Positions 26,606 to 32,785 of a stretch of DNA of 52,385 bases are shown here, piece after piece (positions within the stretch are counted from its first letter, which is position 1; each line of letters opens with the position of its first letter). Made by a program: the position numbers and the translations under genes. Source of the DNA: a virus. The notes under the pieces were generated by a model. That model had not been told where the DNA came from, did not search any database, and was given only the letters and a program-made list of their open reading frames with translations. Location of the stretch: positions 1 to 52,385 of IMG/VR virus record IMGVR_UViG_3300044691_000213. The stretch is one strand, 5' to 3'.

Positions 26606-27246
26606 TGTCAACCGCCGTCTATCCCACCAACACCCAGTTGCCGGGCGTCACCTATACCGTCAAGCGCACGCCGCAAGTCCAGAGCCGGATTCAGATCTCG
26701 ATCAGCGGCAAGGAAACCCGGATCTCCGACTGGTCGTATCCGCGCTATAATTACGAGCTCCAATACGAGTTCCTGCGCACCGCCGCGGCTTTTCAGGAAT
26801 TGCAGCGCCTCGGGGCGTTCTACGTGGCGCGGCTCGGGCCGTTCGATTCCTTCCTGTTCAATGATGTTGACGACAATGGTGTGACCGGCCAGGTCATCGG
26901 CACGGGCGATGGGGTAGCGACCTCATTTCAACTGGTCCGCACCTATGGCCCCTCCGGCACCGTCGCGGTCGAGCCGATCTTCGCCCCGAATGTCGTCTCG
27001 GCCGTCAAGGTCAACGGCGTGCTGCAGACGGTCGATGTCGATTATGGCGTCGGCAATTGGGAGAACGGCGTCACGCCGAACGGCACGCTCGCCTTTTTCT
27101 CGGGCGCGCCTGCCGATGGCGCCGTCATTACCGCCGATTTCACCTTCTATTGGCCGTGCCGCTTCTCAGACGACACCCTCGATCTTGAGAAGTTCATGAA
27201 CGGGCTTTGGCAGGCAAAATCCGTCAAATTCATGAGTTTGAAGTGA
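26605..27246 (+). CDS. DUF2460 tail-tip protein
   Basis: 213 residues. Signature elements are QVQSRIQISISGKETRISDWSY, FQELQRLGAFYVARLGPFDSFLF, the duplicated insert with VEPIFAPNVVSAVKVNG, and the final FYWPCRFSDDTLDLEKFMNG. DUF2460 proteins correspond to the distal tail component in gene transfer agents and related siphophages, the ring between tube and hub. The order tape measure, DUF2460, DUF2163, NlpC/P60, hub is conserved in such tails. The stop overlaps a GTG (GTGA) that starts the next gene. Confidence 0.9.
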   Translation: MSTAVYPTNTQLPGVTYTVKRTPQVQSRIQISISGKETRISDWSYPRYNYELQYEFLRTAAAFQELQRLGAFYVARLGPFDSFLFNDVDDNGVTGQVIGTGDGVATSFQLVRTYGPSGTVAVEPIFAPNVVSAVKVNGVLQTVDVDYGVGNWENGVTPNGTLAFFSGAPADGAVITADFTFYWPCRFSDDTLDLEKFMNGLWQAKSVKFMSLK

Positions 27247-28601
27247 AGCCGATCTCAGACGCGCTCAAAGCGCTCCTGGCGACGCGCCAGTTCTATGCCG
27301 CCGACCTCTATACCTTCACGCTGGTCGGTGACGGCCCGGTCGCGCCATCGCCGCCGCCGCCGCCCTCACCACCGCCACCACCGCCGTCTCCTCCACCACC
27401 GCCACCACCGCCGTCTCCTCCACCACCGCCTGCTCCTGGTGGCAGCTATTACACGATCGGCCGCTACTGGTACGTCGCCACGACCGGCAATGATTCGACC
27501 GGCACCGGTACTGTGACCAATCCCTGGCGCACCATGCAGGGCGCGAACGATAGCGGCGTGCTACAGGCGGGCGACGCGGTCAATTATGCCGATGGCACCT
27601 ATACCCTGACCATCCAGACGAATCTCTCGGCCGGCGGCAACACCAACAGCCCGCTAGGCTACGTCGTCCATCGCGCAATCAATTCGCATGGCGCCAAGCT
27701 CGTGGCCGCGGGGTCGTTCTACGACATGATTGTCGCGACCGGAAACTACATTATCGTAGACGGCTTTGAGATCGACGGCAGCAACGAAGGGCTTTCGTCG
27801 AGCCCGGTGACTGCGGGGAGCGGCTTCGTCGGCCAGGGCCATCACATAATCGTCATAAACAACCTGATCCACGACTTTGGCGGGGCTGGAATAAGCTGCC
27901 TATATAAGGACTGGTACACGATCGACGGCAACACGGTACACGATTGCGCGAAGTTCAACGGGTTCCATGACTCTGGAATTGGCATCTACGAGCCGGCAGC
28001 GACGAGCTATACGCCTTCAGCCGCCGATATCGCCGCAGGTAGTCGTCACATCATCATCCAAAATAACACCTGCTATAATAACGCTGAAACCTACGTCCCG
28101 TTTAGCCTCCCGAGCAATCCTCACACGGACGGCAACGGCATTATTCTGGATGACTTCCAAAACACCCAGGGCAACAACCCATACGTATCGGTAAACACCA
28201 ACTATCCGTACAACAGTTATGTTTACAAAAACACCAGCTATAACAACGGCGGTCGGGGAGTTCACCTATTCTTTACTGACAACGTAACCGTCGACAGTAA
28301 CATTTGCTACACTAACAACCTCGACACGATTGTTACCGGCATCTGGCGCGGCGAATTGTCGAACGCCTTTGGCAACAATAACACTTGGACGAACAACAAA
28401 GCCACTTGTACCAGCACCACGAGCGGTGTCACGGCGAACAACACCGCCGTTCTCGACGGCAGTTCGTCGACTGTGAGCGTCACCTGGAACAACAACGCAA
28501 ACTACGATACCAGGACGGGCGCGCGCAGCTACAGCATAGACAACTCGGCGCGGAACGCCGCATTCCCCGGCGCCAACCCCCTAGGCGGACCCCTGCCGTG
28601 A
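27243..28601 (+). CDS. DUF2163 N-terminal stub fused to a beta-helix domain
   Basis: 452 residues from GTG 27243. Residues 1-33 (KPISDALKALLATRQFYAAD, then LYTFTLVGDG) are the N-terminus of a DUF2163 tail protein. Residues about 34-65 are a Pro/Ser linker, and the rest is a right-handed beta-helix of the pectate-lyase-like type, with repeats such as NYIIVDGFEIDGSNEGLSS, GIILDDFQNTQ, GRGVHLFFTDNVTVDSN and WRGELSNAFGNNNTWTNN. The DUF2163 body resumes as the next gene. The beta-helix stretch uses ATA and other A/T-rich codons more than its neighbours. A depolymerase or receptor-binding role is inferred. A close paralogue lies at 40285-41850. Confidence 0.85.
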   Translation: MKPISDALKALLATRQFYAADLYTFTLVGDGPVAPSPPPPPSPPPPPPSPPPPPPPPSPPPPPAPGGSYYTIGRYWYVATTGNDSTGTGTVTNPWRTMQGANDSGVLQAGDAVNYADGTYTLTIQTNLSAGGNTNSPLGYVVHRAINSHGAKLVAAGSFYDMIVATGNYIIVDGFEIDGSNEGLSSSPVTAGSGFVGQGHHIIVINNLIHDFGGAGISCLYKDWYTIDGNTVHDCAKFNGFHDSGIGIYEPAATSYTPSAADIAAGSRHIIIQNNTCYNNAETYVPFSLPSNPHTDGNGIILDDFQNTQGNNPYVSVNTNYPYNSYVYKNTSYNNGGRGVHLFFTDNVTVDSNICYTNNLDTIVTGIWRGELSNAFGNNNTWTNNKATCTSTTSGVTANNTAVLDGSSSTVSVTWNNNANYDTRTGARSYSIDNSARNAAFPGANPLGGPLP

Positions 28602-28615
28602 TCCGGAGGCAATAG

Positions 28616-29428
28616 ATGGCGACGCTCTATTATTGCTCCGGCGACCGGGACATCACTGTTGACGGCATTACCTACCTGTGCGGCAAGAGCCTGACGGGTG
28701 GTCAGGGCGGCCCGTTCTTCGGCGTCAATACCAAGTTCGCGCTACATCAGAAAATCGGGCTCGAAACCGACACCATCACGTTCGATGTCATCCCCGGCGA
28801 CGGCCAGGTCTTCGGCGAGCCATTTCTGAGCGCATGCCAGGACGGCACTTTCGACGGCGCCACGGTCCAGATCGATCGGGCCTTCATGCCGACCTATGGC
28901 AATGTCGCGGCCGGGATCGTCAATGTCTTCACCGGGCGGGTGGGTGAAGTGGATGCCGGTCGGTCGGTCGCGACCTTCATGGCGAATTCCTGGATGGAAC
29001 TGCTCAATCAGGTATTGCCGCGCAATGTCTATCAGGCGAGCTGCGTGAACAATCTCGGCGATAATATGTGCGGCGTGCATCTGGAATCCTACGCGCAGAA
29101 CTTCACGATTCTGGCGGGATCGACCAAGGCAGTCCTGTTGATCGGCAGCACGGCGGGCAGCGGAGCGCCATACCAGCTTGGCAAGGTCATTGTGCAGACC
29201 GGCTTGCTCGCTGGCCTCTCGCGCTCGGTTCGGGCCTGTGCGTTTTCCGGAGGTACGGGAACGGTCACCCTGTTGGGACCGCTGCCGTCCGCGCCAGCAG
29301 TGGGCGATTCCGTCCGGCTTTACTACGGCTGCGACAAGAGCCAGGGCGCGCAGGGCTGTCCGAAATTCGCCAATATCGCGAATTTCAGGGGATTTCCGTA
29401 TATTCCTCAGCCCGTTACGGCCGTGTAA
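28616..29428 (+). CDS. DUF2163 tail-tip protein lacking its first ~30 residues
   Basis: 270 residues, ATG 28616 with CCGGAGG 6-7 nt upstream. It begins ATLYYCSGDRDITVDGITY, which normally follows the YTFTL segment inside DUF2163 proteins. It continues with KIGLETDTITFDV, then NVYQASCVNNLGDNMCGV and the C-terminal CDKSQGAQGCPKFANIANF, then RGFPYIPQP (phage BR0599-type end). DUF2163 is the hub partner between DUF2460 and NlpC/P60. Its missing N-terminus sits on the gene upstream. The good ribosome site suggests that the body is made separately and still works. Confidence 0.88.
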   Translation: MATLYYCSGDRDITVDGITYLCGKSLTGGQGGPFFGVNTKFALHQKIGLETDTITFDVIPGDGQVFGEPFLSACQDGTFDGATVQIDRAFMPTYGNVAAGIVNVFTGRVGEVDAGRSVATFMANSWMELLNQVLPRNVYQASCVNNLGDNMCGVHLESYAQNFTILAGSTKAVLLIGSTAGSGAPYQLGKVIVQTGLLAGLSRSVRACAFSGGTGTVTLLGPLPSAPAVGDSVRLYYGCDKSQGAQGCPKFANIANFRGFPYIPQPVTAV

Positions 29429-29429
29429 A

Positions 29430-29927
29430 ATGCCGACCGAAAGCGAAATCGCCATCGAGCGCGCCGCCGTTGTGGCCGAGGCAGAGGCGTGGCTTGGGAC
29501 GCCGTTTCACCATGAGGCCAGAGTCAAGGGGGCCGGAGTTGACTGCGCTCAACTCCTGGCCGGCGTCTACCATAATGCCGGGCTCATCCCGAACCTGAAT
29601 ATCTCGCACTACCCGCACGACTGGCACATGCACCGGGATGCCGAGCGCTATCTGGCGACGGTGTTTCAATATGCCGTCGAAGTGCAGGGCCTTGAAGACC
29701 GAACTCCGTTGCCGGGCGATATCGTCGTCTTCCGCTTCGGCCGCACCTTCTCGCATGGCGCGATCGTCACCGCCTGGCCGATGGTCATCCATGCCTATGT
29801 CGGCAAAGCGGTTTCGGCTGAGGACGTTTCGACCAGCGCCTATTTGCAGACGATCGGCGAGAACACCGCCGACAAGGGCCATCCAAGGCCCATGCGCGTC
29901 TTCATTTTGAAGCGGTGGGCCGAATAA
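29430..29927 (+). CDS. NlpC/P60 cell-wall peptidase of the tail tip
   Basis: 165 residues. The catalytic Cys 39 lies in GAGVDCAQLLAGVY and His 109 in RTFSHGAIVTAWP, with an upstream ALAYLGTPFHH-like region (WLGTPFHHEARVKG). This family cuts peptidoglycan cross-links and works from the tail tip during DNA entry. Starts 1 nt after the DUF2163 stop and overlaps the hub gene. Confidence 0.92.
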   Translation: MPTESEIAIERAAVVAEAEAWLGTPFHHEARVKGAGVDCAQLLAGVYHNAGLIPNLNISHYPHDWHMHRDAERYLATVFQYAVEVQGLEDRTPLPGDIVVFRFGRTFSHGAIVTAWPMVIHAYVGKAVSAEDVSTSAYLQTIGENTADKGHPRPMRVFILKRWAE

Positions 29928-32785
29928 TGGCAGGCATCTTCGGCTCCTCTTCGCAATCCACCCAAACCCCAGCGGTCAGCGGCTTCAACGTCCAGACCTC
30001 GGCCTATGGCAAGTGCATCCCGATCGTTTTCGGCTTTACGCGCCTCGCGCCAAATCTGCTGTGGTATGCGAATTTCCAGGCCCACGCCCATCAGCAGAAG
30101 GTCGGCAAGGGCGGCGGCGGGTGTTTCCTCGGCCGCGTTACTGTCGCCACCCCGCAAGGCCCGCGCCCGATCGGCGAGATGGCCGAGGGTGACGAGATCT
30201 ATTGCCGCAATCCCCTCACTGGCGAGCGGGAAATCGGCCAGGTCGTCGGCACCTCGATTCATCGGCTCGGCGACACGCCCAATCGGTTGGTCAAGATCTC
30301 ATACGAAGGAGATCGCGTCCTCGACGGCATCACCGACAATCACCATGTCTGGCTCGATCCGCAGAATTACAGCGAGGCCGGCGGTCTGACGGCCGATCAT
30401 CTGTTGGAGATGGTCGACGGTTCCATGGCGCGGGTAAGCGGCATCGAAGATATCGCGTCGGACCCGGATGATCTCGTCCATAATTTGGTTGTGCTGCCCT
30501 GGCACAACTATTTCGCCGATGGCGTGCTGGTGCATAATGGCGGCGGCGGCAAGGGGCCGGTCTCCTATACATATACCGTCGACCTGATCCTCGGAATCTG
30601 CGAAGGCCCGCTTTCCACTGGAGCGGCCGACTCCCCTCTCTGGGTCGGCAAGACGAAGACAACCGCCGCCGCGCAGGGCATGTCGTATATCGACGGCGTC
30701 TGGCCCTATCTCGCCACCAAATATCCGTCGCAGGCACTGGGCTACAACTCCGTTACGCTGCTAGTGGGGGCGAGCTATAATCTCGGAAATAACACGCAGT
30801 TGCCGAACTTCAATGTTGAAGTTGGCTTTACGTCATTGGGCGAGATTGCCAATGGGGACGAATTTCCGCACCTGATAGCACTTGAACTTCTGGGTAACTT
30901 TCAATATGGGCTGGATCTTGGCTATTACGGCGATTCATCTTCCGTGGTTGGAAGCTGGTATTTCTATCGGGATGGGTCCGGCTCATTTGTCTGGGATACA
31001 TATTACAACTATATTGTCGCCTCCGGCCTGTTCATGTCGGTTGCCTATACCAACCAAGTTCCTGCGGCGCAAATGCTGCAGGAGATCGCGACCTTCACCA
31101 ACAGCGAATGGGTCTGGTCGAACGGCAAGTTGTTCCCCGTTCCCCGCGGAACGGTGTCGCTCTCGGCCACATTTCCCGATCCATCGCTCGACGTTACCTA
31201 CACGCCGCCGACGCCCGTATTCGATCTGACCGACGATGATTTCCTGCTGAACGTCTCCGGCAGCACGACATCGACCTCGAATGACCCGATCATCGTCTCG
31301 CGCAAGCGCGTCTCGGATCAGAACAACGTCGTCACGCTGGAATGGCTCGACCGCAGCAATGAATATGCGCCGGCCATCGCGGAAGCCTCCGACCAGGCAC
31401 TGATTGATGTCTACGGACGGCGCACGACCGGCACGCAGCAGGCGCATCTGTTCGCGACCGCTTCTTGCGCGAACAATTCCGTGCAACTCCTTCTCCAAAA
31501 GGAATATGTCAGGAACACCTACAGCTTCACGCTCGATGCCCGCTATGTCGTGCTCGACCCGATGGATATCGTCACGCTGACGGACGCCGCGCTCCGGCTG
31601 GATCACGCCTGGGCGCGCATCACCGAAATGACGGAACAGACGGACGGCACGATCGCGTTTCTCGCCGAGGAAGTTCCCGAGGGCGGCGGCCAGCCGGCGC
31701 TCTATAGCTTCGCGACCGGCCAGGGGTTCAGCCCGAACTATGGCGCCGATCCGGGCATGGTCAACACGCCGATCATCTTCGCCGCCCCGACGCAATTGAC
31801 CGGCGGCGATCTGGAGGTGTGGGGGGCGGTCTCGGGCGCCAGCGCCAATTGGGGCGGCGCCAATATCTGGATCTCGCTTGACGGCGGCTCAAGCTATACC
31901 TTCATCGGCACGCAAACCGGCTCGGCGCGGATGGGCGTGCTCAATACGCTCCTGCCGGTCATGGCTGATCCCGATATCACCGACACACCGACCGTCGATC
32001 TCACGGAATCGTTCGGCGAACTCTTCTCGGTCTCCCAACCCGAAGCCGACCAAGCGCTGACGCTCTCGATCGTTGATGGCGAGTTGTTCGCCTATGAGAC
32101 GGCAACCCTGACGGCACCCTATACCTACCAACTGTCCTATCTGCGTCGCGCGCTCTACGGCACGATCCAGGCGACCCATGTTTCGGCACCGTTCGCGCGG
32201 CTCGACAACCAGATCTTCAAGTACCCCTACAAGTCGAGTCAGATCGGCCAGACCGTCTTCCTTAAATTCACCTCGTTCAACATCTATCAGGAAGCCGAGC
32301 AGAGCTTGGCCGATGTCGTGGCCTATCCTTACGTGATCGGCACGGCGCCGGATTCCAATCGCTTCACCCTGGCACAAGCATCCTCGCCAGATTGGCCCGG
32401 CACGCTCTCCGGGTTCCTCAAGACCTGGGACGGCATCCTGGTGCCCGACAGCACCCTAGGCGCCAACGCCCACACCAACGCGCAATTGTTCACGCAGTTC
32501 GTGCCGTTCCCCGTGTCGAGCCCGACCTATCAGGGGCCGGCGTTCGATATCGGGATTTCGGAGCCGGTCAACGTGACGATCCGGCCGGCGGCGTCTGCGC
32601 CGAATGGCGGCGTCGCGGTCAATGCGACGGCCCTTGATCACTGGTCGACCGGATCTGACCCGAATACCTTCGCCGCGTTCTCGACCGGCAGCATCACGGG
32701 GCGGTATTTCCGCGCCCAGATCACGCAGGACACCTCGGTTGCGCCGTCCTATGTGACCGCGCTCGCCCTCAACATCTTCAATTAG
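29927..32785 (+). CDS. Tail-tip hub protein carrying an intein-like domain
   Basis: 952 residues from ATG 29927. Residues 1-65 and 205 onward belong to a GTA gp15-like / phage tail_3-type hub: FNVQTSAYGKCIPIVFGFTR, KGPVSYTYTVDLILGICEGP, QEYVRNTYSFT-like LLQKEYVRNTYSFTLDARY, and PMDIVTLTDAALRL. Between them is a 139-residue Hint domain (66-204) in the glycine loop that usually reads K-G-G-G-K. The hub binds DUF2163 and the fibre and opens during infection. If the Hint domain cleaves, the protein would be separated into a short N-terminal piece and a 748-residue body. Confidence 0.92.
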   Translation: MAGIFGSSSQSTQTPAVSGFNVQTSAYGKCIPIVFGFTRLAPNLLWYANFQAHAHQQKVGKGGGGCFLGRVTVATPQGPRPIGEMAEGDEIYCRNPLTGEREIGQVVGTSIHRLGDTPNRLVKISYEGDRVLDGITDNHHVWLDPQNYSEAGGLTADHLLEMVDGSMARVSGIEDIASDPDDLVHNLVVLPWHNYFADGVLVHNGGGGKGPVSYTYTVDLILGICEGPLSTGAADSPLWVGKTKTTAAAQGMSYIDGVWPYLATKYPSQALGYNSVTLLVGASYNLGNNTQLPNFNVEVGFTSLGEIANGDEFPHLIALELLGNFQYGLDLGYYGDSSSVVGSWYFYRDGSGSFVWDTYYNYIVASGLFMSVAYTNQVPAAQMLQEIATFTNSEWVWSNGKLFPVPRGTVSLSATFPDPSLDVTYTPPTPVFDLTDDDFLLNVSGSTTSTSNDPIIVSRKRVSDQNNVVTLEWLDRSNEYAPAIAEASDQALIDVYGRRTTGTQQAHLFATASCANNSVQLLLQKEYVRNTYSFTLDARYVVLDPMDIVTLTDAALRLDHAWARITEMTEQTDGTIAFLAEEVPEGGGQPALYSFATGQGFSPNYGADPGMVNTPIIFAAPTQLTGGDLEVWGAVSGASANWGGANIWISLDGGSSYTFIGTQTGSARMGVLNTLLPVMADPDITDTPTVDLTESFGELFSVSQPEADQALTLSIVDGELFAYETATLTAPYTYQLSYLRRALYGTIQATHVSAPFARLDNQIFKYPYKSSQIGQTVFLKFTSFNIYQEAEQSLADVVAYPYVIGTAPDSNRFTLAQASSPDWPGTLSGFLKTWDGILVPDSTLGANAHTNAQLFTQFVPFPVSSPTYQGPAFDIGISEPVNVTIRPAASAPNGGVAVNATALDHWSTGSDPNTFAAFSTGSITGRYFRAQITQDTSVAPSYVTALALNIFN
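30122..30538 (+). other. Hint / bacterial intein-like (BIL, A-type) domain
   Basis: 139 residues in frame inside the hub gene. Block A is CFLGRVTVATPQGPRPIGEM with Cys1. Block B is the T-x-x-H motif TDNHHVW (T71, H74). Block F/G is VHNLVVLPWHNYFADGVLVHN, ending His138-Asn139. The domain is bordered by GGGG on both sides. There is no homing-endonuclease insert. The residue after Asn139 is Gly, not Cys, Ser or Thr, so full canonical splicing is not expected; N- and C-terminal cleavage is. This matches A-type BIL domains. Confidence 0.88.

Follow-up and report, generated by a model that had tools for sequence, protein, structure and literature searches.

A BIL-like Hint domain in the glycine linker of a phage tail hub, one of many such domains in the tail-tip proteins of uncultured phages

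The window, by which we mean the entire 52,385 nt stretch of viral DNA analysed here (IMG/VR record IMGVR_UViG_3300044691_000213), carries a tail module with a gene order like that of the gene transfer agents (GTA), running from the tape measure through the DUF2460 distal tail protein, a gp84-type hub and an NlpC/P60 peptidase to the tail hub that contains the Hint domain. The features are collected in Table 1. An open reading frame for a beta-helix protein with a proline-rich linker (27207-28601) is inserted in the same module, and overlaps the end of the DUF2460 gene.

Table 1. Positions in the window of the hub gene, its parts and its upstream neighbours.
Feature	Position	Strand	Remarks
gp84/TIGR02218 baseplate hub gene	28616..29428	+	
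NlpC/P60 peptidase gene	29427..29927	+	upstream in the tail-tip module; PF00877 8.3e-6
GTA/lambda-J-like tail hub including Hint	29927..32785	+	952 aa from ATG, stop included
N-extein, 65 aa	29927..30121	+	KGGGG end; conserved strand region resembling the lambda gpI C-terminal region (TAPI-C)
GGGG preceding Cys1	30110..30121	+	
Hint domain, A-type BIL kind, 139 aa	30122..30538	+	Cys1, H47, ITDNH (block B), HNYFADGVLVHN (block F/G)
GGGG following Asn139 (+1 to +4)	30539..30550	+	
C-extein, 748 aa	30539..32785	+	Phage-tail_3 and Rcc01698_C hub domains

The Hint-bearing protein matches Phage-tail_3 (2.3e-22), Rcc01698_C (4.3e-11) and the tail protein family phrog_1101 (7e-70), in agreement with its identification as a tail hub in an earlier note made from the sequence alone. 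Counted from the ATG at 29927, the N-terminal part, the Hint and the C-terminal part have the 65, 139 and 748 residues given in that note; a GTG at 29915 is a possible alternative start, adding four residues. The Hint is held between KGGGG and GGGGK, beginning with Cys1 (a TGT codon) and ending with Asn139 (AAT). Its GC content is 0.604, compared with 0.605 for the remainder of the hub gene; an insert of foreign base composition is thus ruled out.

Taken alone, the window Hint falls below every Pfam cut-off (Hint_2 0.066, PT-HINT 0.25). A profile built from 12 tail-tip Hints (that of the window and 11 relatives) matches solved BIL and intein structures, the best match in the PDB being the BIL domain of Clostridium thermocellum (2lwy, 5.1e-19). 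The AlphaFold2 model, calculated from an alignment of 65 sequences, is confident (pLDDT 93.9, pTM 0.88) and resembles solved BILs and inteins, with Z of about 19-21.5 over 126-142 residues. It is closest to BIL2 of Tetrahymena BUBL1 (6y75 and 6tmm; Z = 21.5 and 21.2, rmsd 1.8 with 139 residues aligned), followed by the C. thermocellum BIL (Z = 20.3) and DnaB inteins (Z about 20), and these are near ties, the lead of BUBL1 BIL2 being within about 1.4. Cys1, the T-x-N-H motif and the final His-Asn are all present, followed by glycine at +1. The Hint fold, anticipated from the letters of the DNA, is thus supported.

The domain has the character of an A-type BIL (Amitai 2003 and Dassa 2004, as cited in PMC7765530), as had been suggested: it combines a Hint fold, Cys1 and a terminal His-Asn with a +1 position free of Cys, Ser or Thr. 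It contains no Pfam match to a homing endonuclease, for which 139 aa leave no room. The Cys, Ser or Thr expected at +1 of an intein is replaced by Gly in 9/9 aligned hubs, including that of the window. Known BILs are described as lying in variable regions of non-conserved proteins (PMC7765530), whereas the window Hint lies in a conserved virion protein, though in a linker that itself varies, and in a kind of linker that bears Hints repeatedly in other tail tips; we therefore call it BIL-like, a variant, with the proviso that the variable-region criterion describes the known cases and not a mechanism. It shares fold and motifs with the inteins of phage helicases and terminases, but these lie in DNA enzymes and mostly have C, S or T at +1.

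The N-terminal part of the hub resembles a region of lambda gpI. It aligns with the gpI C-terminal profile TAPI-C (hhalign 94.2%, score 37.1), where 200 column shuffles reached at most 17.7 and reversed sequences 17.3. TAPI-C in turn matches lambda gpI (8iyk, 2.1e-9), and corresponds to the region of gpI that is resolved in the tail tip. Compared directly with the PDB, the N-extein profile gives a marginal match to a tail assembly protein (E = 1.1). In the tip structures, as described in PMC11101478 and PMC10721106, lambda gpI is seen from residue 101 or 135 onwards, paired with strands of gpJ, while its N-terminal part is unresolved. The hub thus has the gpI C-terminal motif in its N-terminal part, and a gpJ-like body, marked by Phage-tail_3, behind the Hint. 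The very beginning of that body resembles the start of J weakly (prob. 4.9), and a putative J-like start there is weakly supported. Given this alignment of its N-terminal part with the gpI C-terminus, the window hub reads as a probable I-J fusion with a candidate cutter at the joint.

Fifteen relatives of the hub were collected, among them two pairs whose members are alike and three that come from 10 matching phage records. The linker could be read in all but two, and 13/13 of these hubs lack a Hint but have a Gly-rich linker in its place. A further set of 13 hubs have a Hint in that same glycine linker, six in viral contigs (the window among them) and seven in genomes or bins of bacteria. Genome contigs scanned for [ND]G-x-x-VHN-GGG yielded 30 matching stretches with five Hints, 5/5 in this type of hub. 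One bacterial bin (G002) holds four different hub-Hint copies, so that several related prophages or phages may share it. Among 385 genomes of the class of G002, 21 have a Hint match at 1e-10, two of which are of the hub type; to judge by their flanks, the other matches lie outside tail tips.

Hints of this kind also occupy the N-terminal Gly linker of many tail proteins of the lambda-J type, and proteins of the lambda-I type have them in their linker as well. A scan of viral sequences for VHN-GGGG gave at least 119 stretches, 68 of them with a Hint by profile among the matches listed. The 90 non-redundant complete Hints, with types assigned by the analyst, divide into 55 J N-terminal, 7 hub, 5 gpI, 4 J-internal, 4 in Gly-rich fibres and 15 others. 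The C-terminal parts of the Hint-bearing J proteins, scanned for 53/55 (one being too short and one a tandem copy), match phrog_31 central tail fiber J in 51/53, the gpJ FNIII-A domain in 47/53 and Phage-tail_3 in 38/53. Proteins of the gpI type have the order N-terminal part (phrog_32 tail assembly protein), GGGG, Hint, GGGGK and gpI C-terminal part, and the N-terminal part of gpI is Ub-like (PMC1779556). On these proteins Pfam finds Hint families and no gpI family, and their label is based upon the phrog_32 and TAPI-C profiles. The window domain is genuine and conserved, a BIL-type domain placed where the I and J parts of a tail hub meet, and it is one of many in tail tips. The earlier note had placed it in a glycine loop, which is correct, but had supposed that this loop was simply tolerant of insertion. 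That view does not hold, since Hints recur in the same linker in many distant phages, and since in the window hub the linker is the junction of the gpI-like and gpJ-like parts.

Hints occupy a number of other positions. The gpI-type arrangement, in which the Hint separates the Ub-like domain from the gpI C-terminal part, is seen in L048 (8894-10207), L121, L029, L076, L030, L072 and L118. In L019, L029, L056, L105 and L121 a second Hint lies deep within an open reading frame of 1455-1858 aa that is J-like by sequence; within the same phages this J-internal Hint follows GDVY.C or a similar motif, with G, R or M at +1. Tandem Hints number two in one J protein (L080) and three in another protein (L153). 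At one locus (L047) two open reading frames start with a Hint that lacks Cys1, which would permit C-terminal cutting only. At four loci the Hint lies in a Gly-rich protein resembling a tail fibre, and at another (L143) in a different large virion-like protein. No close relative of the window Hint alone was found in viral contigs, and tail-tip Hints were not seen in cultured phages when five Hint queries were compared with 50,697 records, among the matches listed (covering 30 of 75 matches for one of the five). The nearest named phage matches by BLAST are helicase and terminase inteins together with toxin-like Hints, and the plasmid matches to one J-type Hint are toxin-like, calcium-binding and unnamed proteins and one helicase.

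The catalytic residues are strictly conserved. Cys1, His47, the block-B His and the Gly at +2 are invariant in 65/65 aligned tail-tip Hints, this alignment comprising the window and 64 references of the J, hub and gpI types, chosen from 85 non-redundant ones; the other types, including the two Cys1-less Hints of L047, lie outside it. The ends of the Hints were located by the final Asn, so the invariance of that residue is partly built in; this does not apply to Cys1, the block-B His or the +2 Gly. Across eight relatives of the hub, the Hint has a median dN/dS of 0.112, as against 0.067 in the N-terminal and 0.077 in the C-terminal part, values that are rough given median dS of 0.95 to 1.47 (the window itself is too distant for dS). 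The Hint is thus under purifying selection, and together with the invariant Cys1 this argues for an active domain. The conservation of Cys1 indicates that the chemistry of the N-terminal junction matters too, beyond cyclisation of the Asn. In a phylogenetic tree the window Hint groups with those of other hubs (support 0.91), inside the J Hints, while the gpI-type and J-internal Hints of one set of phages are sisters (support 1.0). The latter relationship suggests that Hints may have been copied between tail genes.

The Hint might alternatively be a mini-intein, selfish or relict, that has settled in a tolerant loop, of no benefit to the phage and perhaps inactive. The repeats of Gly codons on both sides could have guided its insertion, the sister relationship in the tree implies spread between tail genes, and it has no endonuclease. 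However, an inactive insert should decay, and this is contradicted by the low dN/dS, with dS near or above 1, and by the invariant catalytic residues; we regard this explanation as unlikely.

To keep the comparison of +1 residues neutral to the flanks, solely 61 loci found by patterns inside the Hint were used, excluding two in which no Hint end was seen; the scans for VHN-GGGG, for [ND]G-x-x-VHN-GGG and for one further pattern, all of which use residues beyond the Hint, were kept out. In this non-redundant set C, S or T occupies +1 in 0/15 tail-tip Hints compared with 20/24 other Hints (p = 1.5e-7). The lack of a +1 nucleophile reported earlier is supported, but it leaves room for ligation: BILs that lack the nucleophile give 'predominantly cleaved products' (PMC7664689), yet for A-type BILs splicing by a different route is described 'in some instances' (PMC5874633).

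Our best reading, to which we give slightly better than even weight, is that the BIL-type Hint excises itself and leaves two non-covalently associated chains resembling gpI and gpJ. It would act as a self-processing domain in the glycine linker that connects a gpI-like N-terminal strand region to a gpJ-like hub body. Following folding, cyclisation of Asn139 would sever the Hint from the GGGG that begins the C-terminal part. At the other end, Cys1 would turn the peptide bond behind the first GGGG into a thioester, which would be hydrolysed. The Hint would then depart, and the 65- and 748-residue chains would stay together by strand pairing, in the manner of lambda gpI and gpJ. The model of the full hub is poor (pLDDT 59.3) and was not used, so that strand pairing across the cut remains a proposal.

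Cutting is the likeliest outcome, and joining comes next, at clearly lower probability. In that case the amine of the oligo-Gly C-terminal part, freed by Asn cyclisation, would attack the Cys1 thioester to give a single chain of 813 residues with an ordinary Gly loop. Glycine is the least hindered amine, Cys1 is conserved along with the final Asn (the latter partly by construction), and the joined loop would resemble that of the Hint-less hubs; indeed, the Gly linker runs on both sides of the Hint in the window and in most relatives, so that splicing would likewise restore a normal loop. The invariance of Cys1, which splicing or transfer would require as well, counts against a reading confined to cutting. 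Apart from the absence of a +1 nucleophile and the prevalence of cleavage among known BILs, joining is opposed by a subgroup of J proteins (seven loci among others) in which a motif like IAGSGGGG precedes the Hint and recurs behind it, as in GGHRDRFPVVAGSGGGG. Of four Hint-less J starts that were read, two begin M..LPLLIAG[SA]GG and two are less alike. Cutting would return the J C-terminal part alone to a normal J start, while ligation would leave two J starts; in that subgroup cutting is favoured.

The thioester might instead be transferred, so that the Gly-tailed N-terminal part becomes attached to a lysine or N-terminus of a neighbouring chain in a covalent cross-link of the tail tip, as in BUBL BILs. 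In BUBL genes BILs are combined with Ub-like domains, and the gpI-type loci likewise couple a Hint to one, the Hint following the Ub-like domain and GGGG. BUBL1 BIL2 is also the top structural match of the window Hint, within the near tie of BILs and inteins noted above. On the other side, BUBL1 is eukaryotic, the window N-terminal part is not Ub-like, the acceptor is putative and hydrolysis is simpler, and we consider transfer improbable. Equally slight is the chance that the Hints of tail tips together make up a widespread and hitherto unreported system by which siphophage tails mature, activating or cutting the glycine linkers between Ub-like, gpI and gpJ regions; in the gpI-type loci the Ub-like domain would end as a GGGG thioester, which could be passed to a tail amine in a built-in, BUBL-like conjugation. 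A possible counter-defence role of tail-tip Hints was also considered, the central tail fibre being the target to which one defence system attaches Ub-like proteins (PMC11364771).

The preferred reading, cutting at both ends of the Hint, has a precedent in a prediction for lambda gpI (TAPI), which belongs to the same tail-tip module and is sometimes fused to gpJ (TAPJ). Cutting at the glycine of its Ub-like domain was predicted in PMC1779556; the predicted JAB cutter is a separate peptidase there, whereas the putative cutter of the window hub is built in. Our searches of open-licence PMC papers turned up no description of a Hint or intein within gpI, gpJ or this hub.

Tail-tip Hints would supply protein engineers with naturally occurring oligo-glycine BILs, and the old prediction that the gpI glycine linker is cut in assembly (PMC1779556) becomes testable. 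The recurrence of the Hint in the same kind of linker across uncultured phages suggests that these tails may cut themselves into their final form. If true, the many BIL-type domains in linkers between the same tail-tip parts would amount to a maturation step that the siphophage tail drives by itself.
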